Shown here piece after piece: positions 23,130-46,859 of a DNA stretch of 64,000 bases (position 1 is the first letter of the stretch; each line of letters starts with the position of its first letter). The stretch is from positions 1 through 64,000 of IMG/VR virus record IMGVR_UViG_3300037875_000252, one strand, 5' to 3'. The notes below the pieces were generated by a model, which saw nothing but the letters and a program-made list of their open reading frames with translations, ran no database searches and had not been told where the DNA came from. Both the position numbers and the translations under genes were made by a program. Source of the stretch: a virus.

Positions 23130-23324
23130 ATGAAAAAAATATCTGATTATATATCTGTATTTGTATTTATAGTAATTTTAACATTAATGGGTGTAATTGG
23201 TTTTATTGATAGTTGTAAAAATAATATTATATATGAAGATGATATTATATACGATAGTCTTGATGATTTTACACAATCTTATTCTTACTGTACTTGGAGA
23301 ACTAATTTTAAAATAATTAAATGA
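23130..23324 (+). CDS. Single-helix membrane protein
   Basis: 64 residues from the ATG behind gaaaggtgaacaag. One N-terminal membrane helix (ISVFVFIVILTLMGVIGFID), then an acidic, tyrosine-rich tail. Overlaps the following HIP-box gene by four bases. Function unknown. Confidence 0.6.
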   Translation: MKKISDYISVFVFIVILTLMGVIGFIDSCKNNIIYEDDIIYDSLDDFTQSYSYCTWRTNFKIIK

Positions 23325-23503
23325 TATGTAAAAACTGTAAAACTAGAGATATAAATAATATGTGGGAAAATAATATAAATTATGAAAAAGAATTATTTAT
23401 ATATTGCTCTTCATGTAGAACTAAGTTAATACCATATCACATACCAGATGATCAGTATGTTAAATATTGGATAGAATTTTCTAGAAAGAATAAATATGAA
23501 TAA
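23321..23503 (+). CDS. HIP-box zinc-ribbon protein
   Basis: 60 residues: CKNC at 3-6, CSSC at about 29-32, then IPYHIPDDQYVKYWIE. First member after the 10-kb interval that begins at the origin-like region. Overlaps both neighbours. Confidence 0.8.
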   Translation: MICKNCKTRDINNMWENNINYEKELFIYCSSCRTKLIPYHIPDDQYVKYWIEFSRKNKYE

Positions 23504-23921: not shown

Positions 23922-23959
23922 TAAAAACTATGAGAATTTATAAAAACTATGAGAATTTA
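23922..23959 (+). repeat. 19-bp tandem duplication at a gene start
   Basis: taaaaactatgagaattta occurs twice in succession; the second copy contains the start codon of the next gene, so that the first copy creates a false start. Confidence 0.9.
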
Positions 23960-24236
23960 TAAAGAATATACAGATTGGTTTACTAGGATTAATTCTAAAG
24001 GTGAGTTAATTATGTATCATTTAGGAATTAATAAATGTACATGTTCTAAAAAATTTAATAGAGATAAAATAAATGAAAAATTTAAAAATTACGATTACGA
24101 TAAATATGATGATTGGATACATAATCCTTATAGAGTAAGAAATCCAATACACATACCAGAAGAACAGATTGAGATGTATTGGAAAAAAAGAATTACAAAA
24201 CTTTATAATGAGGAAAAAAATAATGTACAAAAATAA
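23949..24236 (+). CDS. HIP-box protein, longer acidic/basic form
   Basis: 95 residues with only CTC (about 29-31) as cysteines and the box NPIHIPEEQIEMYWKKR about 20 residues from the end. The N-terminal 60 residues (EYTDWFTRINSKGELIMYHL) differ from the ribbon type and resemble the protein at 41801 (NDWI, HIPxDQ...Y), so a subfamily exists. Confidence 0.65.
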   Translation: MRIYKEYTDWFTRINSKGELIMYHLGINKCTCSKKFNRDKINEKFKNYDYDKYDDWIHNPYRVRNPIHIPEEQIEMYWKKRITKLYNEEKNNVQK

Positions 24237-27563: not shown

Positions 27564-27660
27564 TACTGGTGAGATGTTTTAGAAGTTTCTCAACTGTTTA
27601 TTTTGACAAACACATGAGATAGTAATATTGAGTAAACATTATTACAACATCTCACCAGTA
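27564..27660 (+). other. 15-bp perfect hairpin with 67-base structured loop
   Basis: tactggtgagatgtt pairs with aacatctcaccagta. The loop can form a second stem (ctcaa/ttgag, about 27590-27632) and a third (tgttt/aaaca). It ends 24 bases before the ATG of the next HIP-box gene; an alternative TTG start at 27628 would lie inside it. Confidence 0.6.
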
Positions 27661-27684
27661 GAAATAATTTACAATAAAAATAAT

Positions 27685-27897
27685 ATGAGAGAAGTAGGAA
27701 TATTAAAAAATTGTTTTGTGTGTGGTGAAATATTAGTTAATAATAGATGGTATTGTTCTACTCATTATAAAAGCATTTATATTAGTAATTATAAGGAATT
27801 AATTAATTTAATACCAGATCACATACCAATAGAACAGGAATATAAATATTTAAGATATTTAGTAAAGAAAAATAATATAATTGACAATAAAAAATAA
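27685..27897 (+). CDS. HIP-box zinc-ribbon protein
   Basis: 70 residues from the ATG (an in-frame TTG 57 bases upstream is inside a hairpin). CFVC at about 11-14, C at about 24, H, then IPDHIPIEQEYKYLRY. The second pair is CSTH rather than CxxC, so the ribbon may use a histidine ligand. Confidence 0.75.
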   Translation: MREVGILKNCFVCGEILVNNRWYCSTHYKSIYISNYKELINLIPDHIPIEQEYKYLRYLVKKNNIIDNKK

Positions 27898-27908: not shown

Positions 27909-28280
27909 ATGATAATTAAACTTTGTGATGTTTGTTCTACTAATGAATGTAGGTATATAGGTCTTACACCTATTGAATTACTACCTAAACACATACCAGC
28001 CAATCAATGGATCAAATATACTAAAAGTTTAAAAGAAAAAGTTAAAAGATATAAATATGGTCAAAATAATTATTATATAGACGGATTATATATGTGGACA
28101 AAAGCAACTGGTAAAGATGGTAGAAGATTACAAAAGAAAGAAATTAATTTCTTAAATAATGATAAATATAATGATTGGGTAAAGTATGAAAAAGTACCAG
28201 ATCACATACCAGAAGAACAACATTTTAACTACTACTATTTAATGTGGAAAAAAGAAAATGAGACATTGTGTAAAATGTAA
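27909..28280 (+). CDS. HIP-box protein with two boxes
   Basis: 123 residues. LPKHIPANQWIKYTKSLKEK at about 28-47 follows a short cysteine region (CDVCSTNEC), and a second box VPDHIPEEQHFNYYYLMWKK is near the end, with a YMWTKATGKDGRRLQKKE linker between. It looks like a fusion or tandem duplication of two genes. Overlaps the next member by ATGA-type overlap. Confidence 0.8.
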   Translation: MIIKLCDVCSTNECRYIGLTPIELLPKHIPANQWIKYTKSLKEKVKRYKYGQNNYYIDGLYMWTKATGKDGRRLQKKEINFLNNDKYNDWVKYEKVPDHIPEEQHFNYYYLMWKKENETLCKM

Positions 28281-28437
28281 TAAAGAATTAGATTCTAACG
28301 TATTTGCTTGTAATACTTGCTGGAATATAATTAATACCAATATTAGTTCTTATTTAATACCATCACATATACCAAAAAAACAATATTCAAAATACATAAT
28401 CAAATTATTTGAGGGTAATAAATATGAGATTAGCTAA
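28258..28437 (+). CDS. HIP-box zinc-ribbon protein
   Basis: 59 residues: CVKC at 4-7, CNTC at 18-21, then IPSHIPKKQYSKYIIK and a short tail. Overlaps both flanking members. Confidence 0.8.
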   Translation: MRHCVKCNKELDSNVFACNTCWNIINTNISSYLIPSHIPKKQYSKYIIKLFEGNKYEIS

Positions 28438-28645
28438 ACAACTTAATCAATGTATTATTTGTAGTGAACCTAATTTGGGTAATTCAATGTGGTATCATAA
28501 TGATTGTTATGGTAATAAAGATATTATACAAGTACATATTCCAAATCACATACCAGTAGAACAAGAATTTACATATTTAAATAAAATATACTTAAAGGAA
28601 ATTCATGAGAAAAAAGAAGAAAGTAAATTTCGGTCTAACAAATAG
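28424..28645 (+). CDS. HIP-box zinc-ribbon protein
   Basis: 73 residues from the ATG behind gagggtaata. CIIC at about 10-13, then HNDC, giving a CxxC/HxxC site, followed by IPNHIPVEQEFTYLNK and a charged tail that overlaps the next gene. Confidence 0.75.
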   Translation: MRLAKQLNQCIICSEPNLGNSMWYHNDCYGNKDIIQVHIPNHIPVEQEFTYLNKIYLKEIHEKKEESKFRSNK

Positions 28646-29003
28646 AAGATATATTGGTAAATTGTGTACAAAGGATCATAAGTATGAAGATACTGAATTC
28701 AGTGTTAGGCAGAAAGGATCTAACTCTTGTGTTGTTTGTGATTGGACTAATAAACAATTTGCTAAAAGCTTTAAGTTTTTTGGTCAAGAAGTACCAACAA
28801 GTCATAGAGGTAGAAACAATTCTTCTCATATAGAAATAGGTACTGGATGTAAAAATAGGATTTGTTTATCTTGTGATGAAATATTTTTCTCATCTTTCAG
28901 TGGTAATAGGATATGTAATAAATGTAAAACAAGTAAAGAAACAAAAATAGAGATGAAAGGATTAGCTAGTATAACTACTTATAGGGTGTTAATACCTAAA
29001 TGA
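28605..29003 (+). CDS. Double zinc-ribbon protein, HNR-type paralogue
   Basis: 132 residues. CTKDHKYEDTEFSVRQKG and CVVC form an N-terminal knuckle; the C-terminal CLSCDEIFFSSFSGNRICNKC matches the ribbon of the proteins at 5629 and 54875. The middle is basic with FGQEVPTSHRGRNNSS. Overlaps the next HIP-box gene by ATGA. Function unknown. Confidence 0.7.
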   Translation: MRKKKKVNFGLTNRRYIGKLCTKDHKYEDTEFSVRQKGSNSCVVCDWTNKQFAKSFKFFGQEVPTSHRGRNNSSHIEIGTGCKNRICLSCDEIFFSSFSGNRICNKCKTSKETKIEMKGLASITTYRVLIPK

Positions 29004-29200
29004 ATCAATTTGAAAAATACATAATTAGAAGAGGATGGGTAAAATGTTTAGGTTGTAATGATATGATAAATAATGAAGATATAAGTGATCTATATATTTT
29101 TGGTTATTGTCCACATTGTATATCTAAAATACCTAAACATATACCAGAAGAACAGTGGGGAAAGTATTTAAATAAAAGAAAGAAAATATATGAAAAATAA
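29000..29200 (+). CDS. HIP-box zinc-ribbon protein
   Basis: 66 residues: CLGC at about 16-19, CPHC at about 38-41, then IPKHIPEEQWGKYLNK. Overlaps both neighbours. Confidence 0.8.
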   Translation: MNQFEKYIIRRGWVKCLGCNDMINNEDISDLYIFGYCPHCISKIPKHIPEEQWGKYLNKRKKIYEK

Positions 29201-29609
29201 AATAACAAAGAAAAGAATAAGTATACAATCAGCAAAAGCAAAAGGTCGTAAGTTACAACAATGGACAGCCAGTAAAATATCTGAAATAACAGGTATTAAA
29301 TGTGGCTCTGATGAATTAATATCATCTAGAGGTGGTGGTCAATCAGGAACAGATGTTGCTTTGATTGGCGAAGCAAAAACACTATTTCCTTTCAGTATAG
29401 AATGTAAAGCTCAAGAGACGTACTCTATGCCGTCATTTATTAAACAATCTAAAGATAATCAATTACCTAATACTGATTGGTTATTAGTAATTAAAAGAAA
29501 ACAAGAGAAACCTACAGTAACTATGGACGCAGAATCATTTTTCAAAATGTATGAAAAAACAATACCTAAGAAAGGTTATTTTATGAACAGGGAAGAAATA
29601 CCACAATGA
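29190..29609 (+). CDS. PD-(D/E)XK-type nuclease, Holliday-junction-resolvase-like
   Basis: 139 residues. An N-terminal basic helix (SAKAKGRKLQQWTASKISEI) precedes SSRGGGQSGTDVALIGEA and FPFSIECKAQET, which together give the conserved G..D and E-x-K residues of the restriction-endonuclease-like fold (D at about 56, ECK at about 72). This resembles short phage resolvases/endonucleases that act in recombination. Position between recombination genes and just upstream of SbcD-SbcC is consistent. Exact substrate unproven. Confidence 0.7.
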   Translation: MKNKITKKRISIQSAKAKGRKLQQWTASKISEITGIKCGSDELISSRGGGQSGTDVALIGEAKTLFPFSIECKAQETYSMPSFIKQSKDNQLPNTDWLLVIKRKQEKPTVTMDAESFFKMYEKTIPKKGYFMNREEIPQ

Positions 29610-29821
29610 GAAAAATAACTCTAAGTATAAAATGTTTAATTTGTGGTAAAGATACTATTAATGTTTATGTGTGTGATACTTGTGCCCCAAAAGTAAGAAA
29701 AAGTTTAGGTGTTACTAATGCACGATGGATTCCACATCATATACCATTTAAACAAGAAAAAATATGGATGACTACATATTTGAAAAAAAATAAAGAAAAA
29801 ATAAAGGAAATAAAAATATGA
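29606..29821 (+). CDS. HIP-box zinc-ribbon protein upstream of SbcD-SbcC
   Basis: 71 residues: CLIC at about 10-13, CDTC at about 23-26, then IPHHIPFKQEKIWMTT, with K-Y replaced by I-W. Start and end overlap neighbours by ATGA; the downstream partner is the SbcD-SbcC fusion. Confidence 0.75.
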   Translation: MRKITLSIKCLICGKDTINVYVCDTCAPKVRKSLGVTNARWIPHHIPFKQEKIWMTTYLKKNKEKIKEIKI

Positions 29822-32800
29822 AAATTGGTATAATTGGTGATATACACGCAGATCAAAATAACATAAAAGAAACAGATATTGGTATGAGTAATCTTTTAAA
29901 TGTATTATATGATCATGATGTACAATGGTTATTAGTAACAGGTGACATATTCCATGATTTCAATATAGGCGGTAAAGAAAATAGTTTTGGTAATGTGTTT
30001 GATTCTATTAACAGACCATTAAATGATTTCTTAAAGGAAAAAGAAAAGAATAGTATATTAATGATCCCTGGAAATCATGATACACCAACAGATAAAAATT
30101 CTAAAGATGCTTTGTATTCTTTTGATTATAGAAAAAATTTACACATATCCAGAAATATTAGAAGTTTCAATATAGGTGAGAATGTAACAATAGCCACACT
30201 ACCTTGGATGTGGTCTACAATGTACAAAGATAAGAATGAAATACTTACCAGATTAAAAGAAATTAGAGAAGTCACAAAAAGTAACACTAACATATTAATA
30301 GGTCATTGTGAAATAGAAGGAAGTGAATTACCTAACGGATATGCAATGTTTGGTGGTAACTTTAGTTTTACTAAAAAAGAACTAGATAGTATAGGATATG
30401 ATAAAATAGCTTTAGGTCATATACATAAACAACAAGGATATTTTACAGGTACACCTTGGCAACATGATTTTGGTGAAAGCTCACTTACAGGACAAGTTAG
30501 AATAATAGATACAAATAAGAAAACAGATAAATTTGTAGAAATACCTAATACTGTTAAGTATTATAATATTAATATTGAAAATGTTGATAGTTTCAAGTGT
30601 GGTAAGTTGGATAATGTAAAAGTTTTAGGTAACAAGTTAGATAGAAGATTACCTGATGGTTATAAGTTTCAGAAAATGAAAGAAAACTATTCATCAGTAG
30701 CAAGAAGTAATGTATCCGGTGATGAAACTGTAAATACATTGCTTGGTAAATGGTTAAAAGAGAAGAAGATTAAAACTAATATCAAAGATTTGACAAATAT
30801 ATTAGATAAGATAGATGTACCTAATAGCCATATATGTAATGGATCGTTAATTAGTTTTGAATCTGTACATATTAAAGGTATTGGACCACACAAAGACACG
30901 TATATAGAATTTAAAGATCCTATAATAGCTATAACAGGATCGAATGGTTGCGGAAAGACGTTACTTATTGAAAGTATATTTGCATCTTTATATGGTTATC
31001 TTCCATCTTACGGTAAAATTAAAGATGTATCTAATGAACGTTCATCAATAGAAACTATATTTAAAGTTGATGAAATAAATAAATATGTAATAATTAGAAA
31101 ATTAAATAAAAATAAACAAACAGCTTTCTTATATAAGAATGGTGAGAAGTTAGTTGGTCCTAAAATAAGCGAAGTTAATAAATATATAGAAAAATTAATT
31201 GGACCAAAAGAATTAATACTATCATCTATATTTTCTACACAGTTTTATTCAGGTGATATTGTAGAGTTAGAACCCACAGATAGAAAAGAAATATTTCATA
31301 AGTTATTAGGTTTAAATAACTTAACAAGTATAAAAGAAAAAGTTGATGAAAAACTAAAGTTTTCTAAAGCAGAGAAAGAAAAGTTAAGTAATCAATCTGA
31401 TGCAGTATCTACAGTTGAAGAAATAGCTAATAATATTAAAATTAATAAAGATGTTATAGAAGAAGTAGAAGGTAATATAGTTAAACATGAAAAGAAATTA
31501 GAAGTAAGTAATTCATCACTTAAAAGCTTAAACAGTGCTAAGAATAACTATGAAAAAGAATTAACTATTAAGAATGGTAATGAAGATAAGTTAGTGAAAG
31601 TAAAAAATAAAATAGTAGAATTAAAAGAATTAGAAAAACAATATAATAATGAAATAAAAGAAAATAGTTCTAAGAAAGATACTGTAGAATTGGATTTGGA
31701 GTTAAGAAATAAGAATAAATTATTAGATAGTTTTAATGTACAGTATAAGGAACAAACAAAACAACTTGCTGAACTATTAATTCTAAATAATGTTGTTACA
31801 GAAAAACAAGAAATATATAATAACTGGACATTAAGAATTGAAACTATTAAAAATAAAAATAATGATAGTTTAGAATCAATAGAAAAAGATACAGTACTTT
31901 TAAAAGAAGTTGGGTGTAGAGATAAACCACTACCTTGTAAATTTATAGACTCTGCTAAAGATAATTGCGGTACTCTAGTAAAAGTACAAAAAGAATTTAT
32001 GGACGGTATTAAATTTGCAGAATGTGAACGCAGAGTATGTAAGAAGGATCTTGATAAATCAAAGAAAGAAAGAGATGATTATAAAGTAGTTGAAATAGAT
32101 GAAGATATATACAATACTTTAAATGATGAAGTAAAAGAACTTAGAAATAAAGTAGAATCCCACAATAATAGTAAGTTGAAATTATCTGAATGTGTAACTA
32201 ATTTAAATAATGTTAGTTATAATATAGTTGAAAAAGAAAAAGAAAGAGATTCTATTAATCAATATTTATTATTATTTTCTGATATAAATCAGGAAGTAGT
32301 TGATAAATTAGAAAAAAGTATTAGTGTATGTAATGAAGATATTAAAATCTTTAATGATTTAATAACAAAATACCATGTACATAAAGCAAAATGTATTAAA
32401 GAACTAGAGTTCTGTAAGAATGAAATTATATCACTAACTGAATATGAGTATAGCATCAAAGAATTAACAAAAAATATAACTAAGTTAGACATATTATCAG
32501 AAGCATTTAGTAAAAACGGTATACCACAATTAATTATTGATTCTTCTTTACCACAATTACAGGATATATTTAATATATTAACTAATTATATTAACAAGTT
32601 TAGTATAAAAATATCAACACAAAAACAACAAAAAGAAAGTGTTAAAGAGACAATAGATTTTATAGTTGATGACGGTATTAAACCTAGAGACATTAAGTAT
32701 TATTCAGGTGGTGAAAAAAAACTGCTTAAAAGTTTAATTAGATTAAGTTTGTCATTATTTCAAACACAGAAAACAGGTAAGAATTATAAAGTACTATTCA

Positions 32801-32985
32801 TAGATGAAGTGTTTGATAATCTTGATAAAGAAAACTCTATATTACTATTGAAAATAATATACAATTTGAGTAGTAGGTTTAATCAAATCTTTATAGTAAG
32901 CCATTCTACAGATATTATTAATAATTTAAGTAGTTGTATAAAATTAGAACGTAATGGAGAAAGGACAATAATTAATGTTAAATAA
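29818..32985 (+). CDS. Fused SbcD-SbcC (Mre11-Rad50) nuclease-ATPase
   Basis: One 1055-residue chain combines both subunits of the double-strand-break repair nuclease, separate genes in T4 (47 and 46) and bacteria. Residues 1-260: phosphoesterase motifs IGDIHAD, TGDIFHD, PGNHDTP, IGHCE, LGHIHKQ. Residues about 345-560: ATPase start ISFESVHIKGIGPH with Walker A GSNGCGKT (about 374-381). Then long coiled coils with a cysteine apex (CRDKPLPCKF, about 700) in the place of the zinc hook, though not a plain CxxC. C terminus: YSGGEKK (about 963), LFIDEVFDNLD (Walker B, about 994) and SHSTD. Coupled to the preceding HIP-box gene. Confidence 0.92.
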   Translation: MKIGIIGDIHADQNNIKETDIGMSNLLNVLYDHDVQWLLVTGDIFHDFNIGGKENSFGNVFDSINRPLNDFLKEKEKNSILMIPGNHDTPTDKNSKDALYSFDYRKNLHISRNIRSFNIGENVTIATLPWMWSTMYKDKNEILTRLKEIREVTKSNTNILIGHCEIEGSELPNGYAMFGGNFSFTKKELDSIGYDKIALGHIHKQQGYFTGTPWQHDFGESSLTGQVRIIDTNKKTDKFVEIPNTVKYYNINIENVDSFKCGKLDNVKVLGNKLDRRLPDGYKFQKMKENYSSVARSNVSGDETVNTLLGKWLKEKKIKTNIKDLTNILDKIDVPNSHICNGSLISFESVHIKGIGPHKDTYIEFKDPIIAITGSNGCGKTLLIESIFASLYGYLPSYGKIKDVSNERSSIETIFKVDEINKYVIIRKLNKNKQTAFLYKNGEKLVGPKISEVNKYIEKLIGPKELILSSIFSTQFYSGDIVELEPTDRKEIFHKLLGLNNLTSIKEKVDEKLKFSKAEKEKLSNQSDAVSTVEEIANNIKINKDVIEEVEGNIVKHEKKLEVSNSSLKSLNSAKNNYEKELTIKNGNEDKLVKVKNKIVELKELEKQYNNEIKENSSKKDTVELDLELRNKNKLLDSFNVQYKEQTKQLAELLILNNVVTEKQEIYNNWTLRIETIKNKNNDSLESIEKDTVLLKEVGCRDKPLPCKFIDSAKDNCGTLVKVQKEFMDGIKFAECERRVCKKDLDKSKKERDDYKVVEIDEDIYNTLNDEVKELRNKVESHNNSKLKLSECVTNLNNVSYNIVEKEKERDSINQYLLLFSDINQEVVDKLEKSISVCNEDIKIFNDLITKYHVHKAKCIKELEFCKNEIISLTEYEYSIKELTKNITKLDILSEAFSKNGIPQLIIDSSLPQLQDIFNILTNYINKFSIKISTQKQQKESVKETIDFIVDDGIKPRDIKYYSGGEKKLLKSLIRLSLSLFQTQKTGKNYKVLFIDEVFDNLDKENSILLLKIIYNLSSRFNQIFIVSHSTDIINNLSSCIKLERNGERTIINVK

Positions 32986-33289
32986 ATATAAGATAGTTAA
33001 AGAAATAAATCACCATAATAATAAATTTTATTATCATGTTTACCGTAAATCAAATAATTTCTTTAAATCAATATGTGAAAACTTTTGTTGTTGGGTATAT
33101 TTAGATTCTTATTCAAGTTTTAAAAGTGCAAATAATAGAATAGGTAATGAAGTTGAAAATGATAAAAATATAGAAATTAAACTAAAACAATTAAAAGAAA
33201 ACACTACATTCAAATATACACCAATACCAGATCACATACCAGATGAACAACAGGAACAATATGTTATAGAAAGTATGAAAAAGAAATGA
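32975..33289 (+). CDS. HIP-box protein, long N terminus
   Basis: 104 residues. The first 60 (KIVKEINHHNNKFYYHVYRK) look like a small beta-rich domain with CENFCCW; the end is IPDHIPDEQQEQYVIESMKK. No regular CxxC pairs, so this belongs with the forms at 23949 and 41801 that keep the box without the ribbon. Confidence 0.7.
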   Translation: MLNKYKIVKEINHHNNKFYYHVYRKSNNFFKSICENFCCWVYLDSYSSFKSANNRIGNEVENDKNIEIKLKQLKENTTFKYTPIPDHIPDEQQEQYVIESMKKK

Positions 33290-33549
33290 AAAAAATAGAA
33301 AAATTTGAATGTTATGCAAATAAAGTAATATTTAATGAAAATACTTGTGCAAGTGATAACTGTAAATGGATAATTCCTTGTAAGATAATGTGTGGTAATA
33401 AAGTAGATATGTTTGAATATGCTTTAATAGAAACATTACAAGGTATATTAGAACGTGGAGAGATGACAGAAGTGTTAATAAAAAATTATAACATATCACC
33501 TAACGCTGTTAAACAGGCTGTTAAACGATGGAAAAAACTAAAGAAATAA
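33286..33549 (+). CDS. Hypothetical protein with helix-turn-helix-like end
   Basis: 87 residues. Cysteines at CASDNC and CKIMC, then a helical C terminus (MTEVLIKNYNISPNAVKQAV followed by KRWKKLKK) that looks like a helix-turn-helix with a basic recognition helix. It may bind DNA. Overlaps HIP-box genes on both sides. Confidence 0.55.
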   Translation: MKKIEKFECYANKVIFNENTCASDNCKWIIPCKIMCGNKVDMFEYALIETLQGILERGEMTEVLIKNYNISPNAVKQAVKRWKKLKK

Positions 33550-33731
33550 TTTGTGATAATTGTAATAACACACCAACTTCACAATACAATAAAGGTGTTT
33601 GGTGTTGGGGTGTCACATATATACCAAAACATATACCTAAACCACAACACAAAAGGTACAGAAAGTCTATAATTAAAAAAGCAATCGATGAAAATTATTG
33701 TGATATGTATCAATCAAATGAAGAAAACTAA
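33528..33731 (+). CDS. HIP-box zinc-ribbon protein upstream of the UvsW-like helicase
   Basis: 67 residues: CDNC at about 9-12, W-C-W at about 26, then IPKHIPKPQHKRYRKS and a longer tail. The second cysteine pair is reduced to one cysteine. Six bases before the helicase gene. Confidence 0.75.
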   Translation: MEKTKEIICDNCNNTPTSQYNKGVWCWGVTYIPKHIPKPQHKRYRKSIIKKAIDENYCDMYQSNEEN

Positions 33732-33736: not shown

Positions 33737-35875
33737 ATGAATATAAATATAAACGGTAACACAGCAAAGATTTCAGGTCACTATAGTTTCACACAGGTAG
33801 ATAATATTCTATCTTTTAAGAGTCCTAACTATTGGTTTTCACCAGCTTTCAAGTCTGGTAAATGGGATGGTAATATACGTTTCTTAAAGAAAGATGGGTC
33901 ATTTCCAGTTGGATTTTTAAAGAGGGTATTAAAATCACTCCCTGAAACTAAAGTTACATATAATGAATCAGATATGGAAATAGATACTGATTCATTATTT
34001 TACTATATTAAGAAGAATAACCTCAGAGATTATCAGTATAATTCTATTAGGATATCTTTAAAAGAAAAAATAGGTATAGTAAAATTAGCTACTAATGCAG
34101 GTAAAGGTAGATGTATTGCAGGTATAACAACTGCATTATCTAAATACAATGTGTTAATATTAGCAGATAGAATAGATGTATTATCAGAACTAGAAAAGGA
34201 ATTAAAAGGATTATATAATTATGAATTATGCACATTTCAAAGTGCAAAGAAGTTAGATTTATCATCATTTGATGCAGTACTTATAGACGAGTGTATACAT
34301 CCAGGATCTTATATACTTTTACCTGATGGTAGTTCAAAAACTATAGCAAAAGTATATAAAGATAAAGAACCTTATGTCCTAACTGTAGATAATGGTAAAT
34401 TAGTAAAAGGTAAAGTATTAAGACACATAAAAAATAAAATAAGAGGTAGAAAAATATTAAGAATTAAAGTTAAAAATAAACATGGAAGATATAGTACAAT
34501 GTCTTGTACAGATAATCATGGTATTTTTACAACTAATGGAAAAATAAGAGCAGATAAACTTAATATAGGTGATGAAGTATATTATGTTTACGGTAGAAAA
34601 GAAAAACAGAAATTTATTAGAGGTAATGTAAATAGAATAAAAAAGCAAAAAAATGTAAGTTTAGGTGCTAAAAATTCTAAATGGAGAGGTGGTAGAGTAT
34701 TATGTGGTGAGATAGGATCACAATACTATTACTTAACTAAATCAGGTTTATTACATAATTTAGAATTACTAGAAGATTTATCATCAATTAGTGAATTACA
34801 AATTAAAAATTATATAGAATTATGGTATGATAAATTACCAAATAGAATAAGAGAACATAGATTAATAATGTCTTTACATAGAGGAAGGTTATTATTTAAA
34901 AAAGAACATATACATCATATGGATAATAATAAATTAAATAACTATATAAACAATCTTAGTATAGTAGATAAATTAAATCATTGTAAATTTCATAATACAA
35001 AAAGAAACAAAAAATATGATAGTTTAAATTATGAGACAGCTAAAATAATAAGTATAGAAGAAAATAAAATTAAAAGTAATCATGTATATAATTTGGAAAT
35101 TGAAAAAACAAATAAGTATTTTGCTGGAGATATATTGGTTAGTAATTGTAGTTCTGTTGGTGCTAATACATTCTATAAAATAGTTACTGGATGTATTAAT
35201 GCTAAAATAAGAATAGGATTTAGCGCAACACCTAAAAGAAGTGATGGAAAAGACTATTATATAGAAGCTTCTATTGGTAATGTAATAATAAGTGTAGAGC
35301 AAGATGAATTAATAAGAAGGGGTATATCTGTTAAACCTAAAATATATTTAATACCATTTAGGGTAGATTTTACAGATGGTCATGGTTATAGTAAATCAGA
35401 AGATTTATTAGTGAATAAAAAAGAAAGAAATAAAATTATAGTTGATTTATGTAAAGATAAACATGAGGTAGTAGTTCTATATAAAAAACATAAACATGGA
35501 GAATTATTACATAAATTAATACCAGATTCAGTATATTTAGATGGTAGAGATAAAAAATCTAAAAGAGATAAAATAAAGAAAGATTTTATTAGTGGAAAAA
35601 TTAAAGTATTACTGGCATCTAATATATTTGATAAAGGTATTAACCTACCTAATATAAAAGTATTAATATTAGCTTGGGGTGGTAGATCACCTTCTGGTTT
35701 AATACAAAAGATTGGTAGAGCAGTAAGGAATTGTGATGGTAAAAATAGTGTTGATATTTATTGTTTCGCTGAACTTGGTGATAAGTATTTTAATAAACAC
35801 ACTAAAATACGTATAGATGAATTGATTGATGAAGGTTATGATGTGGAGACATATAAACCAGGAGTAATAAAATAA
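33737..35875 (+). CDS. uvsW: UvsW-like superfamily 2 helicase with intein
   Basis: 712 residues, of which 427 form the mature helicase after splicing. N-terminal region with WFSPAFKSGKWDGNIRFL as in T4 UvsW-type proteins, then Q-like LRDYQYNSI, motif I ATNAGKGR, motif II VLIDE-C, motif III-like GFSATPKR, and the C-terminal RecA domain with VLLASNIFDKGINLP and QKIGRAVRN (motif VI). Such helicases unwind recombination and stalled-fork structures. The intein interrupts motif II, so the enzyme should be inactive before splicing. Preceded by a HIP-box gene. Confidence 0.88.
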   Translation: MNININGNTAKISGHYSFTQVDNILSFKSPNYWFSPAFKSGKWDGNIRFLKKDGSFPVGFLKRVLKSLPETKVTYNESDMEIDTDSLFYYIKKNNLRDYQYNSIRISLKEKIGIVKLATNAGKGRCIAGITTALSKYNVLILADRIDVLSELEKELKGLYNYELCTFQSAKKLDLSSFDAVLIDECIHPGSYILLPDGSSKTIAKVYKDKEPYVLTVDNGKLVKGKVLRHIKNKIRGRKILRIKVKNKHGRYSTMSCTDNHGIFTTNGKIRADKLNIGDEVYYVYGRKEKQKFIRGNVNRIKKQKNVSLGAKNSKWRGGRVLCGEIGSQYYYLTKSGLLHNLELLEDLSSISELQIKNYIELWYDKLPNRIREHRLIMSLHRGRLLFKKEHIHHMDNNKLNNYINNLSIVDKLNHCKFHNTKRNKKYDSLNYETAKIISIEENKIKSNHVYNLEIEKTNKYFAGDILVSNCSSVGANTFYKIVTGCINAKIRIGFSATPKRSDGKDYYIEASIGNVIISVEQDELIRRGISVKPKIYLIPFRVDFTDGHGYSKSEDLLVNKKERNKIIVDLCKDKHEVVVLYKKHKHGELLHKLIPDSVYLDGRDKKSKRDKIKKDFISGKIKVLLASNIFDKGINLPNIKVLILAWGGRSPSGLIQKIGRAVRNCDGKNSVDIYCFAELGDKYFNKHTKIRIDELIDEGYDVETYKPGVIK
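34292..35146 (+). mobile_element. Intein with HNH homing endonuclease in the helicase DE-C motif
   Basis: 285 residues (186-470 of the protein), starting CIHPGSYILLPDG and ending YFAGDILVSN before the +1 cysteine. Block A (C..G), block B-like CTDNHGIFTTNG, an HNH domain (REHRLIMSLHRG, EHIHHMDNNKLNN) and block F (HVYNLEIEKTNKYFAGDILV) are visible. The penultimate residue is Ser, where most inteins have His. Removal restores a normal motif II. Confidence 0.9.
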
Positions 35876-36088
35876 ATGGAAATAGATCTACAACCTACGG
35901 GTACGATATTTAATAAAAACTATTATAATACATATTATGATTGTTTATATTGTTTATCTGATAGTAAACCATTAAAAATTGAATATTGTAATTGTAAACA
36001 TATACCAAAACATATACCAAATGAACAAAAAGATAAATATATTAGAGAAATGGTAAAAAAATTACCTTATAAGTATATATGGGAATGA
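35876..36088 (+). CDS. HIP-box zinc-ribbon protein
   Basis: 70 residues: CLYC at about 23-26, CNC at about 38-40, then IPKHIPNEQKDKYIRE. Starts directly after the helicase stop. Confidence 0.75.
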   Translation: MEIDLQPTGTIFNKNYYNTYYDCLYCLSDSKPLKIEYCNCKHIPKHIPNEQKDKYIREMVKKLPYKYIWE

Positions 36089-36556: not shown

Positions 36557-36850
36557 ATGGATGATAAACTAACAAAACAAGATATTGATTTACTAGTTGA
36601 AGGAATTGAGATGTGGGAGAAATATCCTGAGATGATAATAAACACATATGAATTTATGAAACAAGGATATATAGAAAAAGGTTCTACACAACCAATTGAT
36701 GAAGCTACACAAATAAAAATTAAAGAATTAAAAGAGCAAATTAAAACTAGAAAGCATCAAGCTATACTTATTAAATACAAATTAGTAAAATTAAATCATG
36801 TGTTAGATGTAGAAGAAATAGAGAAAAAATTTAACAAGGAACAAAATTGA
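36557..36850 (+). CDS. Hypothetical helical protein
   Basis: 97 residues behind aaaggagaaataa. Charged helices (QDIDLLVEGIEMWEKYPEMI, KIKELKEQIKTRKHQAILIK), probably coiled coil. Overlaps the next HIP-box gene by four bases. Not recognised. Confidence 0.65.
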   Translation: MDDKLTKQDIDLLVEGIEMWEKYPEMIINTYEFMKQGYIEKGSTQPIDEATQIKIKELKEQIKTRKHQAILIKYKLVKLNHVLDVEEIEKKFNKEQN

Positions 36851-37113
36851 AATCATCATGCGGCAATTGTGGAGATTTTGTTAGTGGTGTTGTAGTAAAT
36901 TACTACTATAACAATCAAAGTATGATATATTGTTGTTTTGATAATAATTATGATGGTGTATTTATTGTTGAAGAAAATATATTTATTATTTGTAAAGAAT
37001 GTGAAAATGAATTTAATATAAATAAATTCTCTGATTATCATATACCAAAACATATACCAGAAAAACAAAGACATAAATATTTTAAAACTTTTATAGAAAA
37101 GAATAGAAAATGA
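36847..37113 (+). CDS. HIP-box zinc-ribbon protein
   Basis: 88 residues (TTG start in overlap): CGNC at 5-8, CKEC at about 52-55, then IPKHIPEKQRHKYFKT. The DNA of its box is identical over nearly 40 bases to that of the broken member at 37574, evidence of recent copying. Confidence 0.8.
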   Translation: MKSSCGNCGDFVSGVVVNYYYNNQSMIYCCFDNNYDGVFIVEENIFIICKECENEFNINKFSDYHIPKHIPEKQRHKYFKTFIEKNRK

Positions 37114-37577
37114 ATACTTTAGATCTAATAAATCTATATGAGAGGTTAGTAAGAGAAAAACATTCTCGTTTCTATAAAATAAGTAGAAGAGGTGATGCTT
37201 ATGTAAAACACAGAAAAACTTTCTCTAAGCTAAATGAAAAACTTAAAAAGAAAGATATATCACCAGATGATTTTATAAGGATACAGTTTAGTGCTAAAGG
37301 ATATAAGCCTTATCCTAACCAACTACTATCTAAAGTAGCTATGCAAAGATATTTAGATCATATTAGTTGTATAACAAGTGAAGAAATAAATAGAACTCAA
37401 GAATCATATTTACGTGAATTATGTGAAGATGGTTACACATTAGAAGAAGCATTGCAATTTGATATATTCTACTATTATTTCAGATGTAGTAAGTTAAAAG
37501 ATTATCCTAAAAATTGGTTGTTTTTAGCACAGAAAGAAATTGAGAAAACACCAGAACTTAAAAACATAAAATTATGA
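37110..37577 (+). CDS. Hypothetical protein before the replicative helicase
   Basis: 155 residues, helical, with aromatic-rich segments (LNEKLKKKDISPDDFIRIQF, LFLAQKEIEKTPELKNIKL). It lies in the replication operon and its length and position would fit a helicase-loading or accessory protein, but no motif shows this. Overlaps the genes on both sides by ATGA. Confidence 0.6.
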   Translation: MNTLDLINLYERLVREKHSRFYKISRRGDAYVKHRKTFSKLNEKLKKKDISPDDFIRIQFSAKGYKPYPNQLLSKVAMQRYLDHISCITSEEINRTQESYLRELCEDGYTLEEALQFDIFYYYFRCSKLKDYPKNWLFLAQKEIEKTPELKNIKL

Positions 37578-37763
37578 AATGTAAAAAATGTAAATTATGA
37601 TAATTGTACATGTGTTACATGTACAGGAGAAGTTAATATTGGTATATGTGGTGAATGTGTTTCTAATATTTACTATGAAATAATAACATTACCAAAACAT
37701 ATACCAGAAAAACAAAGACATAAATATAAAGTAGAATATATAAAGGAGAATTATGACGGATGA
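37574..37763 (+). pseudogene. Frameshifted HIP-box gene upstream of DnaB
   Basis: MKCKKCKL is followed by TGA; one base later the frame reads YDNCTCVTC, ...GICGECVSNIYYE and LPKHIPEKQRHKYKVE to a normal stop inside the helicase gene. Deleting one T from aaattatg restores an ordinary member. Same type of break (TT for T) as in the methyltransferase. Confidence 0.65.
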
Positions 37764-38988
37764 ATTTGAGAAACTATTAATATCAGCACTACTAAAAGAT
37801 AAACAATTTTTAAAAGAAACAATAGGTTATATTGATGATGAAATATTTAAAAATCAATACTATAAATATTTTTATTCTATATTAGAAACATATTATAATA
37901 AGTATAATAATGTAATACCTTTTGATATATTTAAATATTTACTATCCAAAACTTTAACTAAACAAAATTTCTCTAACGAAGAATTCCCTATAATATCAGG
38001 ATTAATAATTGATATATTTGATACAAAATACGATATTAAATTTTTAAAGTCTGAAATAGGTAATCACATAAAAGAACGTAAGTTAAGAAAAATATTATCA
38101 AGTGCTAGTCAAAATTTTAATTTAAATAAAATTGAAAAACTATTAGAAGATTTAAAAGATGCTAATAAATATGATCCTGAAGAAGATAAACCACTTGAAT
38201 ACGTATCATCATTACACAAAAGAAGTCTTGGTCAAAAGCCAGTACCAACATCTATTACTAGTTTAGATACTATTATTGGTGGTGGAATAACTCCAGGTGA
38301 ATTTGGTTTAATTTCTGCTCAAACTGGTGGTTGTAAATCTATGACTTTATTAAATTTTGCTTGGGGTGCTGTTCATTTAGGTTTTAGGGTATTGTTTATA
38401 ACCCTAGAAGATTCTATGGATACTGTGATGCAAAGATTTGATGCTTTATTCTCAAATCAAGAATTTATAACTTTTAGGAGAGACCCAACAGCTTCACAAA
38501 GAATTAAAAATAAAGTACTTGAACATAAAAATAAATTATATGTGAAGGATTTTTCATCTGGTATATGTACAGTAGGTAAAATAAGGTCAGTTATAGCTGG
38601 TATGGATAAAATGGATTTAATTGTAGTAGATTATTTAGATGAATTAGGTGGAAGAAATAAGAGAAGTGACAGATGGCAAGAAGTGGAAGATTCATCTAGG
38701 GAATTAAAAGCATTGGCATCTGAGTTAAATGTTCCTGTTTGGACAGCCACACAAACATCTTCAGCTAGTTATGGTAAGGAATTTGTAGGGTTACAACATA
38801 TATATGGTGGTAAAGGTAAAGCACATATATCACATATTGTAATTACTGCTGTTCAGACAGAAGAGGAAAGAGCAGGTAATAGATTAAGATACATAATAAG
38901 CAAACAGAAAAATGGACCTAAAGGTGGAGTAGTGGATTGTATTGTTGACTTAGCTAAAGTTAGAATTCATGATGCTAAACTAATATGA
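37753..38988 (+). CDS. DnaB-like replicative DNA helicase
   Basis: 411 residues. N-terminal helical domain (FEKLLISALLKDKQFLKETI), then the RecA-like core: SAQTGGCKSMTLLNFAWGA with Walker A (about residue 188), LFITLEDSMDTVMQRF, LIVVDYLDELGG (Walker B) and TATQTSSASYGKEF. It should unwind the fork together with the primase encoded downstream. The P-loop has Cys before Lys-Ser. Length is slightly short for DnaB but typical of phage forms. Overlaps the frameshifted HIP-box gene. Confidence 0.9.
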   Translation: MTDEFEKLLISALLKDKQFLKETIGYIDDEIFKNQYYKYFYSILETYYNKYNNVIPFDIFKYLLSKTLTKQNFSNEEFPIISGLIIDIFDTKYDIKFLKSEIGNHIKERKLRKILSSASQNFNLNKIEKLLEDLKDANKYDPEEDKPLEYVSSLHKRSLGQKPVPTSITSLDTIIGGGITPGEFGLISAQTGGCKSMTLLNFAWGAVHLGFRVLFITLEDSMDTVMQRFDALFSNQEFITFRRDPTASQRIKNKVLEHKNKLYVKDFSSGICTVGKIRSVIAGMDKMDLIVVDYLDELGGRNKRSDRWQEVEDSSRELKALASELNVPVWTATQTSSASYGKEFVGLQHIYGGKGKAHISHIVITAVQTEEERAGNRLRYIISKQKNGPKGGVVDCIVDLAKVRIHDAKLI

Positions 38989-39185
38989 ATAATGAATATT
39001 ATTTGTGTAAAAAATGTAATACACAATATGAATATAAATACTGTATATTACAGGTAGGTTTTGATAGTAACTCTAATGATGAACATAAAGGTTATTGTTA
39101 TATTTGTTTTGTTGAATCTAAAATACCAGACCATATACCAAAAGAACAATGGTCAAAATACATGGATAAAAAATATGGAAACTAA
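38985..39185 (+). CDS. HIP-box zinc-ribbon protein
   Basis: 66 residues: CKKC at 8-11, CYIC at about 38-41, then IPDHIPKEQWSKYMDK. ATGA overlap with the helicase; its end overlaps the next member. Confidence 0.8.
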   Translation: MNNEYYLCKKCNTQYEYKYCILQVGFDSNSNDEHKGYCYICFVESKIPDHIPKEQWSKYMDKKYGN

Positions 39186-39324
39186 CTGTGCGTTATGTAT
39201 TCATAAAAGTTTTACACGTTCATTTTTAATTGGTGTTTGTTTAAAATGTAGAGATAAAATAATACCAGACCACATACCATCAAGACAACATAAGAAATAT
39301 TTAGAATTTAAAAAGATAATATGA
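39175..39324 (+). CDS. HIP-box zinc-ribbon protein, shortest intact form
   Basis: 49 residues from the ATG overlapping the previous end: CALC at 5-8, CLKC at 22-25, then IPDHIPSRQHKKYLEF. The minimal layout of the family: two CxxC pairs 13 residues apart and the box. Confidence 0.8.
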   Translation: METNCALCIHKSFTRSFLIGVCLKCRDKIIPDHIPSRQHKKYLEFKKII

Positions 39325-39514
39325 GAAAATGTTTACTTTGTTATAAAGATGTGTCAATATGTGATTTTCTACCTAATAGTAAAATATGTAGAACGTGTTT
39401 TTTTTGATATACACAAACTCGTACACAATCATATTCCAAAATAACAGTTTCTAAATATATAAAAGCAAAGATTAAGAAAAATGAAAGGATAAGAGATGAA
39501 AAGTCTAAATGAAC
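39321..39514 (+). pseudogene. Decayed HIP-box gene
   Basis: MRKCLLCYKDVSICDFLPNS then KICRTCFF and a stop after a run of eight T. One base on, another frame reads DIHKLVHNHIPK and stops; a third resumes as VSKYIKAKIKKNE. At least two frameshifts separate the ribbon, box and tail of a former member. Confidence 0.6.
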
Positions 39515-39747
39515 AAATAGATGATTTTATTATGCCATTCGGCAAATTTAAAGATTGTAAATTAGAAGATGTAGATTTAGAATATCTTGATTGGTTTGCT
39601 ATAAACTCCACAAATAGACTACATAGAATGATAGCAAATAAGTATATAGAAAGAGTAACTAAAAAGTTTAAAAATAATAATGTAGATTTAGATAGAGTAA
39701 TTAATAAAGATGATGATTTAGAAAAAGAAATGAATGAACACTTTTAA
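39496..39747 (+). CDS. DUF3820-like protein
   Basis: 83 residues: IMPFGKFKDCKLEDVDLEYLD is the MPFGKyKG..l.dlP..YL.W signature of DUF3820 (also called putative quorum-sensing-regulated factor), here followed by an acidic helical tail. The family is common beside phage nucleases and replication genes; function unknown. Ribosome binding site aaaggataaga. Confidence 0.7.
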   Translation: MKSLNEQIDDFIMPFGKFKDCKLEDVDLEYLDWFAINSTNRLHRMIANKYIERVTKKFKNNNVDLDRVINKDDDLEKEMNEHF

Positions 39748-39755
39748 GGGGAATT

Positions 39756-40184
39756 ATGGATAACATAAATAAGATAGATCGTGTAGCAGTTAGTGGTGAA
39801 AAGAATGGTAGATGGTCAGGTGGTGTTAATTCTTATTATAAAAACCATTACCAATTAAAACTTAATAGAAAAGAAAAGATGAAACAAGTAGGTAGTTTAT
39901 GTGAGAAATGTGGTAAGAAAGTTCCACTATTTGCAACACATAAAGATGGTGACAAAGATAATCATATTATAATTAATTTAGAAATGTTATGTAGTAGATG
40001 TAGACCAAGATCAAAAGACTATAATAGTAAATATGTTAAGAAGTTTGGTATGTCTATGGAAACTATGAAAAATAAATACAATCTTACAGAACATGACGTA
40101 TATAAAAAATGTATTAAGACTTCTAGTAATGAGAAAGAAATAAAAATTAAATTAGAAAAACTTTCTGAAGAAAATAACAAATGA
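39756..40184 (+). CDS. HNH endonuclease
   Basis: 142 residues. GEKNGRWSGGVNSYYKNHYQ then CEKCGKKVPLFATHKDGDKD, NHIIINLEMLCSRCRPRSK: the two CxxC pairs, the H-x-D and the N form an HNH core. C terminus is helical (TMKNKYNLTEHDVYKKCIKT). NGRWSGG also occurs in the helicase intein (NSKWRGGR) and is common in phage homing nucleases. Probably a free-standing homing endonuclease. Confidence 0.75.
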   Translation: MDNINKIDRVAVSGEKNGRWSGGVNSYYKNHYQLKLNRKEKMKQVGSLCEKCGKKVPLFATHKDGDKDNHIIINLEMLCSRCRPRSKDYNSKYVKKFGMSMETMKNKYNLTEHDVYKKCIKTSSNEKEIKIKLEKLSEENNK

Positions 40185-40690
40185 ATATGTATATCTACTA
40201 TTTTTTATATTACTATATATGTAGTACTCCAATAATATTTTTTATAATATATAACTCTTTGTTTGTATATGAACAAAATAATTGGGGTTTTAGTATGAGT
40301 AAATCTTTTTTTGAATCAAATAAAATTTACTCAATATATTTTGGAATTTTACTTACATTAGTAAATGTTATTGGTATTTTACTTACATATTTTTTCACTA
40401 AAAAATTTAAATATGGTATTGGTTTTCATAAAAATATTAAATTAATATGTAAAAAATGTAATAAAAAACTTACAATTTCAAAAAATGTAGATTTTGAAAT
40501 TTTTAATGGTTTTAAATATGGTAATATTATAATTAATGGTTTGAAATATGGTAATATTACAAATAATGATGAAATATTTATTAAATGTGTAAAATGTTAT
40601 GAAACTTTATGGTATAAAATACCATCACATATACCATTAAGCCAAAATAAAAACTATTTAAAATTATTTAAAAAGAAATATGTATTATAA
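40181..40690 (+). CDS. Membrane-anchored HIP-box zinc-ribbon protein
   Basis: 169 residues. Two predicted membrane helices (YYICSTPIIFFIIYNSLFVY and YFGILLTLVNVIGILLTYFF) are followed by CKKC, a 10-residue tandem repeat (GFKYGNIIIN, GLKYGNITNN), CVKC and the usual box IPSHIPLSQNKNYLKL. The order ribbon then box is kept, so a membrane anchor has been joined to an ordinary member with an enlarged loop. It would hold the box at the inner membrane surface. Confidence 0.75.
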   Translation: MNMYIYYFLYYYICSTPIIFFIIYNSLFVYEQNNWGFSMSKSFFESNKIYSIYFGILLTLVNVIGILLTYFFTKKFKYGIGFHKNIKLICKKCNKKLTISKNVDFEIFNGFKYGNIIINGLKYGNITNNDEIFIKCVKCYETLWYKIPSHIPLSQNKNYLKLFKKKYVL

Positions 40691-40844
40691 ATGTAAATGT
40701 TGTAAAGAAAATATAATTAATGAATGTAGCGAATCTTATATATGTGGTTGTGTTTGTGCTGTGTGTAGAGATAAGATTATACCTAAATACATTCCACTAA
40801 AACAACATAAAAAATATTTAAATTCTAAATATAAAATATTATGA
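40680..40844 (+). CDS. HIP-box zinc-ribbon protein
   Basis: 54 residues: CKCC at 5-8, several cysteines (CGCVCAVC) at 22-29, then IPKYIPLKQHKKYLNS, with Tyr for His in the box. Overlaps both flanking members. Confidence 0.75.
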   Translation: MYYKCKCCKENIINECSESYICGCVCAVCRDKIIPKYIPLKQHKKYLNSKYKIL

Positions 40845-41005
40845 AACATTGTACTATTATTTGTAAAATGTGTTATAAAATTTTATATTGTAAGTTATCA
40901 AAAAAAACTGGTATATGTTTTAATTGTAGAGAAGAATTAATTCCAAATCACATACCAAAAGAACAATTTAAAAAATATTGGAGTAATAAAAAGTGGATGA
41001 TATAA
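40841..41005 (+). CDS. HIP-box zinc-ribbon protein upstream of primase
   Basis: 54 residues: C4, CKMC at 8-11, CFNC at 26-29, then IPNHIPKEQFKKYWSN. Its end overlaps the primase start by 13 bases. Confidence 0.8.
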   Translation: MKHCTIICKMCYKILYCKLSKKTGICFNCREELIPNHIPKEQFKKYWSNKKWMI

Positions 41006-41799
41006 AAGTTACATGTATAAATCCTTATTGTGATGATGATAAAGATCATCTTTGGATAAATGTACAGAAGATGATCTATCATTGCTGGAAATGTGGATAC
41101 TCTGGTAGAATAGTAGAAAATAAAGGTATACTAAATATACTAAAAAATAGAAAAACTACTAAACCAGTTTCTAGAAACAAAAAATTTGTACAAGACAGTA
41201 AAGAATTGATTGATCCAAATGGATTTATACCTATAGAATCTTTGAAATCTAATCATTATACTATAGAGTATATTAAATCAAGATGTGTTTCTATTGAGTT
41301 ATGTACTAAGTTAGGTGGTATGTACTCACAACAAGGACCTCTAAATGGTAGAATAGTGTTTCCTATTAAGAGTGGTAATAATATTGTAGGTTGGCAAGGT
41401 AGATCTGTATATAATAGGATTCCTAAATACCTTATATTTGGTAAAAAGAGTTTAGGTATATTTGCTATAAAGGATTTAAAATCATATAAAAACTTTGTTA
41501 TTATTTTTGAAGGTGTGTTTGATATATTGAAAGTACCTGATTATGGTATATGTATATTAGGTAAGAAGTTAAGTAAAGAACAAAAGAGACTACTTACAGC
41601 ATTTCTAAATGTTAAAACAGTATTTGTTATGTTGGATAGCGATGCAAACATACATTCTAAGAGAGATTACGAACAAGAGTTATGTGATGAATTATCAGAG
41701 TATTTTAATACTATTCCAGTTCAATTAAAATCTGGTGATCCTGGTGACCTTACTGAAAATGAGATATTGAAATTATGCCTAAACAAAATAAAGAAATAA
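40993..41799 (+). CDS. DNA primase, zinc-finger and Toprim type
   Basis: 268 residues, GTG start inside the HIP-box gene. N-terminal zinc finger (CINPYCDDDKDHLWINVQ, then HCWKCGYSG), then LNGRIVFPIKSGNNIVGWQG and the Toprim core with IIFEGVFDILKV (catalytic E) and FVMLDSDAN (DxD). It makes RNA primers on the lagging strand with the DnaB-like helicase. Shorter than bacterial DnaG, with no helicase-binding domain, as in other phage primases. Confidence 0.88.
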   Translation: MDDIKVTCINPYCDDDKDHLWINVQKMIYHCWKCGYSGRIVENKGILNILKNRKTTKPVSRNKKFVQDSKELIDPNGFIPIESLKSNHYTIEYIKSRCVSIELCTKLGGMYSQQGPLNGRIVFPIKSGNNIVGWQGRSVYNRIPKYLIFGKKSLGIFAIKDLKSYKNFVIIFEGVFDILKVPDYGICILGKKLSKEQKRLLTAFLNVKTVFVMLDSDANIHSKRDYEQELCDELSEYFNTIPVQLKSGDPGDLTENEILKLCLNKIKK

Positions 41800-41800
41800 A

Positions 41801-42070
41801 ATGGAACTACAAAAAGCAATAAAAAAATCTACGTGTCAAAATCACGCATATAGAGTTAATGAAGATGGAAGTTTATTATTCTATAACGGTAATAATAAAT
41901 ATTCTGGTTTTGGTAATACTGGCGTACACCATACAGGTAAAATATTATCTACTAATGAATCAAACTATAATGATTGGATACCATACTTTATAAAACCTGA
42001 ACATATACCAGATGATCAATGGTTCACTTATTTTAAATCTTATTGGGAGAAACATAAAGATGAAACTTAG
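41801..42070 (+). CDS. HIP-box protein without ribbon
   Basis: 89 residues with one cysteine. Box KPEHIPDDQWFTYFKSYWEK near the end; the first 60 residues (LLFYNGNNKYSGFGNTGVHH, NYNDWIPYF) recall the protein at 23949. It directly follows the primase. Confidence 0.7.
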   Translation: MELQKAIKKSTCQNHAYRVNEDGSLLFYNGNNKYSGFGNTGVHHTGKILSTNESNYNDWIPYFIKPEHIPDDQWFTYFKSYWEKHKDET

Positions 42071-42239
42071 AAAGTTTATAAATAGTGATGAAAATGTGTG
42101 GATAGAACCAGTAGATAATATTAACTTATTTAAACATTGTGCATGTGGAAAAGAAAAGGTTAAAAAAGAAACATTCAATATGGATGTAGCACCACTTTTA
42201 TTAATTCACGGAGTTGAGATTGTTAAATTTATAAAATAG
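42060..42239 (+). CDS. Hypothetical protein with CxC
   Basis: 59 residues from the ATG overlapping the previous end. KFINSDENVWIEPVDNINLF, then HCACGKEKVKKE and a hydrophobic tail (APLLLIHGVEIVKF). Not recognised. Confidence 0.55.
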   Translation: MKLRKFINSDENVWIEPVDNINLFKHCACGKEKVKKETFNMDVAPLLLIHGVEIVKFIK

Positions 42240-42248
42240 AGGAAGATT

Positions 42249-42512
42249 ATGGAAAAGATATTTAATTGTGATGAAACAGGTGAAACTTTAATAGTAAAAA
42301 GTGTAAAAGACAAATCATATTCATATGATAGTATACATAATATGACTATTAGAGAAGTAGAAAATTTTATTATGTATGTTAATGAGAATACTTTTAGACA
42401 ATCTTTTAGAAATATTGTAAGAACTAAAGAAGGGAGAAAAAAATTAATTAGTTTTGCACAAACTATTCATGGTAGGTTGTACGACATAGTAAGAGAAAAA
42501 TCACACTATTAA
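42249..42512 (+). CDS. Hypothetical protein
   Basis: 87 residues behind agaggaagatt: a beta-type start (CDETGETLIVKSVKDKSYSY) and helical end with FRNIVRTKEGRKKLISFAQT. Not recognised. Confidence 0.6.
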   Translation: MEKIFNCDETGETLIVKSVKDKSYSYDSIHNMTIREVENFIMYVNENTFRQSFRNIVRTKEGRKKLISFAQTIHGRLYDIVREKSHY

Positions 42513-42530
42513 TCTTATAAGGAGGATGTT

Positions 42531-44561: not shown

Positions 44562-44570
44562 AGGAGAGTT

Positions 44571-44888
44571 ATGGATAAAATAAAATTACACTACTCAATA
44601 AGAAGTGGTGGTGATGGTAGTGCTCATATACAATTTATGGAGTCAGAAGAATTAGCAATATGGGATCAAGACAACATGGATGAAGGTTGGGGTGAAACTT
44701 GTAACGGTTATGTTGAACTTTCATCAAAATCACGTATAATACTTTTAGAAGATATTATGACTATAGATGATATGATTGAAGATATAGAAAATAGTTTATC
44801 TTATTGTTGTGATACTATTAAAGAAAGTTATGAAAAACAACTTACAGAACTTAAAAAAATGAAAGGAAAACAAAATGGAGAACTTTGA
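44571..44888 (+). CDS. Hypothetical acidic protein
   Basis: 105 residues behind aaggagagtt. LHYSIRSGGDGSAHIQFMES and GYVELSSKSRIILLEDIMTI; beta-rich with a helical, lysine-containing tail. The GSAHIQFMES..E pattern occurs in short phage proteins of unknown role. Overlaps the next gene by 14 bases. Confidence 0.65.
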   Translation: MDKIKLHYSIRSGGDGSAHIQFMESEELAIWDQDNMDEGWGETCNGYVELSSKSRIILLEDIMTIDDMIEDIENSLSYCCDTIKESYEKQLTELKKMKGKQNGEL

Positions 44889-46858: not shown

Positions 46859-46859
46859 T

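Follow-up and report, generated by a model that had tools for sequence, protein, structure and literature searches.

The window analysed here is a 64-kb portion of a 66,669-base virus record (itself a fragment, of ~66.7 kb), and the fused gene, its neighbours, the UvsX gene and the family of small genes described below lie on the plus strand. A single open frame of 1055 codons at 29818–32985 encodes a fused SbcD-SbcC protein of 1055 aa. The frame opens with an ATG that overlaps the stop codon of the small gene before it, and AAGGA lies upstream. Pfam matches to the protein were Metallophos at residues 1–204 (1.4e-12), AAA_23 at residues 349–561 (2.7e-17) and, C-terminally, the SbcC Walker B region. 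In PHROGs, the SbcD-like family phrog_100 covered residues 1–327 and the SbcC-like family phrog_77 residues 231–1044. The preliminary description of this locus had proposed the fusion of a complete SbcD with a complete SbcC, and this is borne out by the Pfam and PHROGs matches and by the intact motifs of both halves. A phmmer search of solved structures (PDB) with the whole protein gave Rad50 as the best sequence matches. An AlphaFold2 model of the 1055 aa protein (input alignment of 21 rows) had a mean pLDDT of 80 and placed the parts in the order nuclease, helix-loop-helix (HLH), linker, N-lobe, hairpin coil and C-lobe, but with a pTM of only 0.50 the relative placement of these domains is unsure and not to be trusted. 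In Foldseek comparisons, the model matched Rad50 chains of the PDB and, at full length, single-chain DNA-repair exonucleases from giant viruses and from further phages.

The Mre11/SbcD phosphoesterase domain occupies residues 1–242 (29818–30543), as judged by the Pfam match, motifs, profile match and model. The ligand motifs of calcineurin-like Mre11 proteins (DxH, GDxx, GNHD, H and GHxH) are all present, as are all of the metal and catalytic residues (D8, H10, D43, N86, H87, H163, H201 and H203), which form invariant columns in an alignment with two metagenomic fusions (L069 and L049, described below) and split SbcD proteins. The GDxxD motif ends in histidine (H46). A profile of the N-terminal half retrieved Mre11/SbcD structures, the best being Thermotoga maritima Mre11 (3qg5, 6e-32), matched end to end. 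Residues 243–300 (30544–30717) correspond to the capping-domain region by their position between nuclease and HLH, with low model confidence. The HLH, the Rad50-binding motif of Mre11, lies at residues 305–331 (30730–30810); its helices (305–316 and 322–331) were modelled by AlphaFold2 with a pLDDT of about 77–93, and the profile alignment through this part reached the end of T. maritima Mre11. Together, the motifs and the HLH support the prediction that the single-chain protein is an Mre11/SbcD nuclease.

The HLH ends at about residue 331 and the first strand of the ATPase begins at 346, in agreement with the junction originally placed at about codon 340. Both domains are thus in one open frame, nuclease first, joined by a short linker of ~12 residues (residues 332–344, 30811–30849), which is placed by the model and contains no ATG or GTG. 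Between codons 294 and 370 there is no in-frame ATG or GTG. The only in-frame TTG codons near the junction are 308 and 325, neither with a clear ribosome site, and the remaining two reading frames are full of stops. That one chain fixes a 1:1 stoichiometry, as had been argued, is a fair inference, and an additional, separate sbcC or sbcD may be present elsewhere in the phage, outside the 66.7-kb fragment.

The second half of the protein carries the complete set of Rad50/SbcC ATPase motifs. The N-lobe (residues 345–498, 30850–31311), identified by Pfam, motifs and model, contains the Walker A sequence GSNGCGKT at 374–381 and the Q-loop residue Q475. The C-lobe (residues 901–1055, 32518–32982), identified in the same way, contains the signature YSGGEKK at 962–968 (SGGE, S963–E966), the Walker B and D-loop sequence FIDEVFDNLD at 994–1003 (Walker B D996–E997, D-loop D1003) and the H-loop residue H1029. 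Between the lobes, the model shows an antiparallel coiled coil with an ascending arm at residues 499–697 (31312–31908) and a descending arm of matched length at residues 708–896 (31939–32505). Arm lengths vary in step: compared with L069, the ascending arm of the window protein is longer by 50 residues and the descending arm by 52, consistent with an antiparallel hairpin whose turn lies at C700/C707.

Three cysteines lie at the apex of the coil (C700, C707 and C717), the C-x6-C and further cysteine noted previously, and the first two are at the turn between the arms. An exact CxxC is absent, and C700-x6-C707 (31915–31938) stands where other SbcC proteins have their CxxC. Besides the cysteine positions, this assignment is supported by the alignment with L069, which keeps the C-x6-C and the following KFI-x-SA but not C717, and by a distance correlation: over 28 SbcC-type sequences, the distances from Walker A to hook and from hook to signature correlate with r = 0.97 when C-x6-C is taken as the hook. 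A search with the apex peptide alone as query returned no match. The preliminary description had suggested that fusion alters hook-mediated dimerisation, and this is unsupported. The cysteines are at the CxxC position, and some split SbcC proteins of phages also have wide spacings at the same place (C-x7-C in a Moorella phage and in L055, C-x4-C in L050), while L049, though fused, has CxxC, as do the fused proteins of cultured phages. Wide spacing is therefore independent of fusion, and from these comparisons it is probably a variant of the two-cysteine hook and not a result of the fusion. The split SbcC-like relative closest to the clade of the window protein (v065; L065 3096–5555) lacks a cysteine hook at its apex altogether, so an exact CxxC does not define membership of SbcC.

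The relatives L069 and L049 were reached by searching with the SbcC half together with its Moorella phage and phage G relatives, and then with the window protein together with L049; the window protein alone recovered no relative when viral contigs were scanned with it, distant fusions when aligned shared no sufficiently conserved stretch, a search of genome contigs with the patterns used yielded no relative, and no SbcD-SbcC fusion was found in the plasmids searched. L069 (IMG/VR contig IMGVR_UViG_3300034518_000399) comes from a separate metagenome and encodes the fusion in one frame of 954 aa, 46–52% identical to the window protein over its whole length. It shares with the window the fusion, its neighbours and the putative C-x6-C hook, and differs in a coiled coil about 50 residues shorter per arm and in a UvsW gene without an intein. 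The third contig, L049, carries a diverged fusion of 1150 aa (25% identity over the full length, pairwise E = 4e-98). Records sharing the gene at 42531–44561 of the window had split SbcD and SbcC where these were found (G003 and G016), or were fragments.

The gene neighbourhood is one of recombination and replication. Upstream of the fused gene is a PDDEXK/RusA-like resolvase (29190–29609; Pfam, PHROGs and synteny), and downstream are an 87 aa ORF (33286–33549) and a UvsW-type helicase with an intein (33737–35875; Pfam and PHROGs). The flanking genes of L069 are the same, with identities of 54% for the resolvase, 54% for the 87 aa ORF, 50–67% for UvsW and 49% for a further ORF. Genes for UvsX, DnaB, ligase and Pol A are also within the window, the UvsX/RecA recombinase (59844–61916; Pfam and PHROGs) having a LAGLIDADG intein, so that two recombination genes of this phage, UvsW and UvsX, bear inteins. 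That of UvsW is an HNH intein at about residues 186–465, and the L069 gene in the same place (4096–5412) lacks it, giving an occupied/empty pair in a syntenic gene. The family A DNA polymerase (55617–57941) has a family 4 uracil-DNA glycosylase domain at its N-terminus, before the 3′-5′ exonuclease, and PHROG 17 covers this glycosylase-exonuclease-polymerase arrangement. A 565 aa protein (47635–49332) has a weak Pfam match to Pkinase (6.5e-6, below the curated cut-off). Two further IMG/VR contigs, 3300000150_000115 and 3300028189_000047 (L014 and L016), are 99–100% identical to the window in the proteins compared (window about 37000–48000) and begin just downstream of the sbcD-sbcC region.

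The view that the two proteins are separate chains in T4, bacteria and eukaryotes, from which the preliminary description started, is incomplete, as single-chain fusions have been published and at least seven cultured phages have one. Yoshida et al. reported Mre11/Rad50 fusions in 2011, including Mimivirus R555, Bacillus phage 0305phi8-36, five bacteria, several eukaryotes and plasmids, and found that they were not monophyletic (PMC3175470). As a kind, the fusion has been known since then and its novelty is low; common descent with R555 does not define the kind, given that the published fusions are not monophyletic. The same study estimated the distance from the Mre11 C-terminus to the Rad50 N-terminus at about 28 Å, or 9–12 linker residues (PMC3175470), and the linker of the window protein fits this estimate. 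R555, known here by its published description, is likewise virus-encoded and has the same domain order in one polypeptide, with the capping and HLH regions and a short linker kept. Both proteins have histidine in place of the last aspartate of GDxxD, but R555 has aspartate for the first histidine of GHxH, where the window protein keeps GHIH.

A search for the same fusion in other phages, as had been advised, was successful: besides L069 and L049, it was found in seven cultured phages (phiXF1, phiLo, IME392, Ab1-TPeters, Cobetia phage Carin-5, Rhizobium phage TM30 and Vibrio phage 150E35-1). Each has a single CDS of 866–1054 aa with both domains, recognised by Pfam in six of the seven, while the nuclease half of Ab1-TPeters was placed by alignment only. 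These CDSs are annotated variously as SbcC-like, SbcD-like, endonuclease subunit, coil-containing or hypothetical. They differ from the window protein in sequence (17–20% identity for the five aligned), in forming a separate clade and in having CxxC hooks, and four of them (phiXF1, phiLo, IME392 and Ab1-TPeters) have GD[ILV]H where the window protein has GHIH. The same domains and motifs are found in T4-type gp47/gp46 and in the split SbcD/SbcC of Herelleviridae, Bacillus phage G and Moorella phage MTATph1, but as two genes and two chains; the hook of the MTATph1 SbcC (C-x7-C) is comparably wide. In Pseudoalteromonas phage XG4, Vibrio phage EniLVp02 and Acinetobacter records, matches that seemed to span both domains came from two adjacent genes and not from fusions. 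Yersinia phage YerA41 divides the fused gene at another point (L045 905–3942): one CDS holds the nuclease with the first part of SbcC, and the C-terminal portion of the ATPase is encoded by the CDS that follows and overlaps it.

Trees of the two domains were built from 30–31 sequences, with Rhizobium phage TM39 excluded, both of its annotated genes beginning with the same peptide. Both trees unite the window protein with L069 and L049 in one clade (support 99/99 and 99/97). In the ATPase tree this clade groups with the split v065 (100/100) and then with the split types of Bacillus phage G and the Moorella phage, apart from the seven cultured fusions, and a single clade of nine fusions was rejected (AU p = 0.0015). 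A further fusion, L071 (1060–1082 aa), pairs with the split v066 at 100/100 in both trees. By the ATPase tree, the lineage of the window appears to have arisen through a fusion of its own, distinct from the one in the cultured phages. Descent of all phage SbcD-SbcC fusions from one ancient event, the window included, draws on the nuclease tree, which separates the two fusion groups without rejecting a single clade (AU p = 0.105), and on an early concatenated tree without L049 and L069, which did not reject it either (p = 0.25); fusion followed by later splitting could also produce the pattern. Against the low p value of the ATPase tree, the grouping there of window, L069 and L049 with split genes, and the position of L071 beside v066 in both trees, we consider a single origin improbable. 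Separate origins are favoured, with at least two and probably three fusions among tailed phages, a count to be taken with caution given the long branches and groups that had been seen before the test. A fuller proposal is about as likely as not. In it, the fusion shared by the window, L069 and L049 evolved on its own among tailed phages, as at least the second such event (L071 may be a third), and the wide-spaced C-x6-C hook conserved between the window protein and L069 would join the coiled coils in a metal geometry unlike that of the classical CxxC hook.

Mre11-Rad50 and gp47-gp46 are 2:2 complexes in which ATP controls the access of the nuclease to DNA ends. The fused gene very probably encodes a single-chain nuclease-ATPase of this type, predicted to work as a (DC)2 dimer with a zinc hook and a role in resection. 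Two chains would dimerise through the nuclease domains and the ATP-bound heads, giving a (DC)2 counterpart of M2R2. Each nuclease half would attach through its HLH to the coiled-coil base, with the ~12-residue linker standing in for the chain break and leaving the geometry unchanged, and the binding and hydrolysis of ATP would control whether DNA ends can reach the nuclease. At the apex, C700-x6-C707 most likely joins the partners through zinc, as CxxC hooks do. By this scheme, fusion would secure equal supply and local assembly of the two activities, not a new geometry. The enzyme would resect ends to produce 3′ tails for UvsX in recombination-dependent replication and repair, and UvsW and the neighbouring resolvase would finish the intermediates. 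T4 employs gp46/gp47 in recombination-dependent replication (PMC3175470), and end resection for this process, equivalent to that of gp46/gp47, is most likely the main role of the protein in the phage.

A fused enzyme of the same kind could have another main job, such as breaking down host DNA, cutting hairpins or palindromes, or acting in defence or counter-defence. T4 gp46/gp47 mutations also abolish host DNA degradation (PMC5105663), and PADLOC gave weak matches to the SMC-like defence proteins LmuB and mad3. These matches span the generic ATPase/coiled-coil fold and are far weaker than those to phrog_77 and phrog_100, and on that ground a role in defence was set aside. With recombination and replication genes surrounding the fused gene both in the window and in L069, a different main function is unlikely, and resection remains the preferred role.

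An artefact, in which sequencing or assembly missed a stop and restart near codon 340, can be dismissed: although a small change can create such a join, as in Listeria phage LMTA-57 (one gene) and its close relative LMTA-34 (two), the independent contig L069 has the same unbroken frame at about 50% identity, L049 carries another, and a second gene at the junction would have neither an ATG nor a GTG start nearby. The fused SbcD-SbcC of LMTA-57 (L074 1352–4381, 1009 aa; the two genes of LMTA-34 are at L075 1351–4381) either arose by fusion very recently or reflects an error in sequencing.

Two small genes flank and overlap the sbcD-sbcC gene, and they belong to a family of ~27 (52–123 aa) that lie between core genes and share a C-terminal motif, IPxHIPxxQxxKY. 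They are found at 5257–5415, 6009–6191, 7822–7998, 10112–10327, 11896–12108, 12153–12365, 12699–12902, 12899–13066, 23321–23503, 23949–24236, 27628–27897, 27909–28280, 28258–28437, 28409–28645, 29000–29200, 29606–29821, 32975–33289, 33528–33731, 35876–36088, 36847–37113, 38985–39185, 39061–39324, 40680–40844, 40841–41005, 41801–42070, 54519–54719 and 55445–55630. Most have CxxC...CxxC ahead of the shared motif (15 were aligned). Ten tested against Pfam and PHROGs gave no convincing family, and one of the proteins, searched against phage records, had no match. Number and place differ in the syntenic L069 (3704–3925 and 3906–4106), and some of the genes differ in length between the window and L014 or L016. 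From their distribution, it is as if these genes insert and spread, and the family looks more unusual than the sbcD-sbcC fusion itself.

The window protein and its relatives extend the known single-chain Mre11-Rad50 enzymes by a well-supported lineage. Fused phage genes of this kind have been labelled as only SbcC or only SbcD, which calls for caution with automated annotation. As their subunits cannot dissociate, the fused proteins would be convenient for structural and single-molecule work on the crosstalk between nuclease and ATPase, and the wide-spaced hook is a natural variant in which to test how far hooks depend on the CxxC geometry. For the phages themselves, the lineage suggests that the two genes have been fused more than once.
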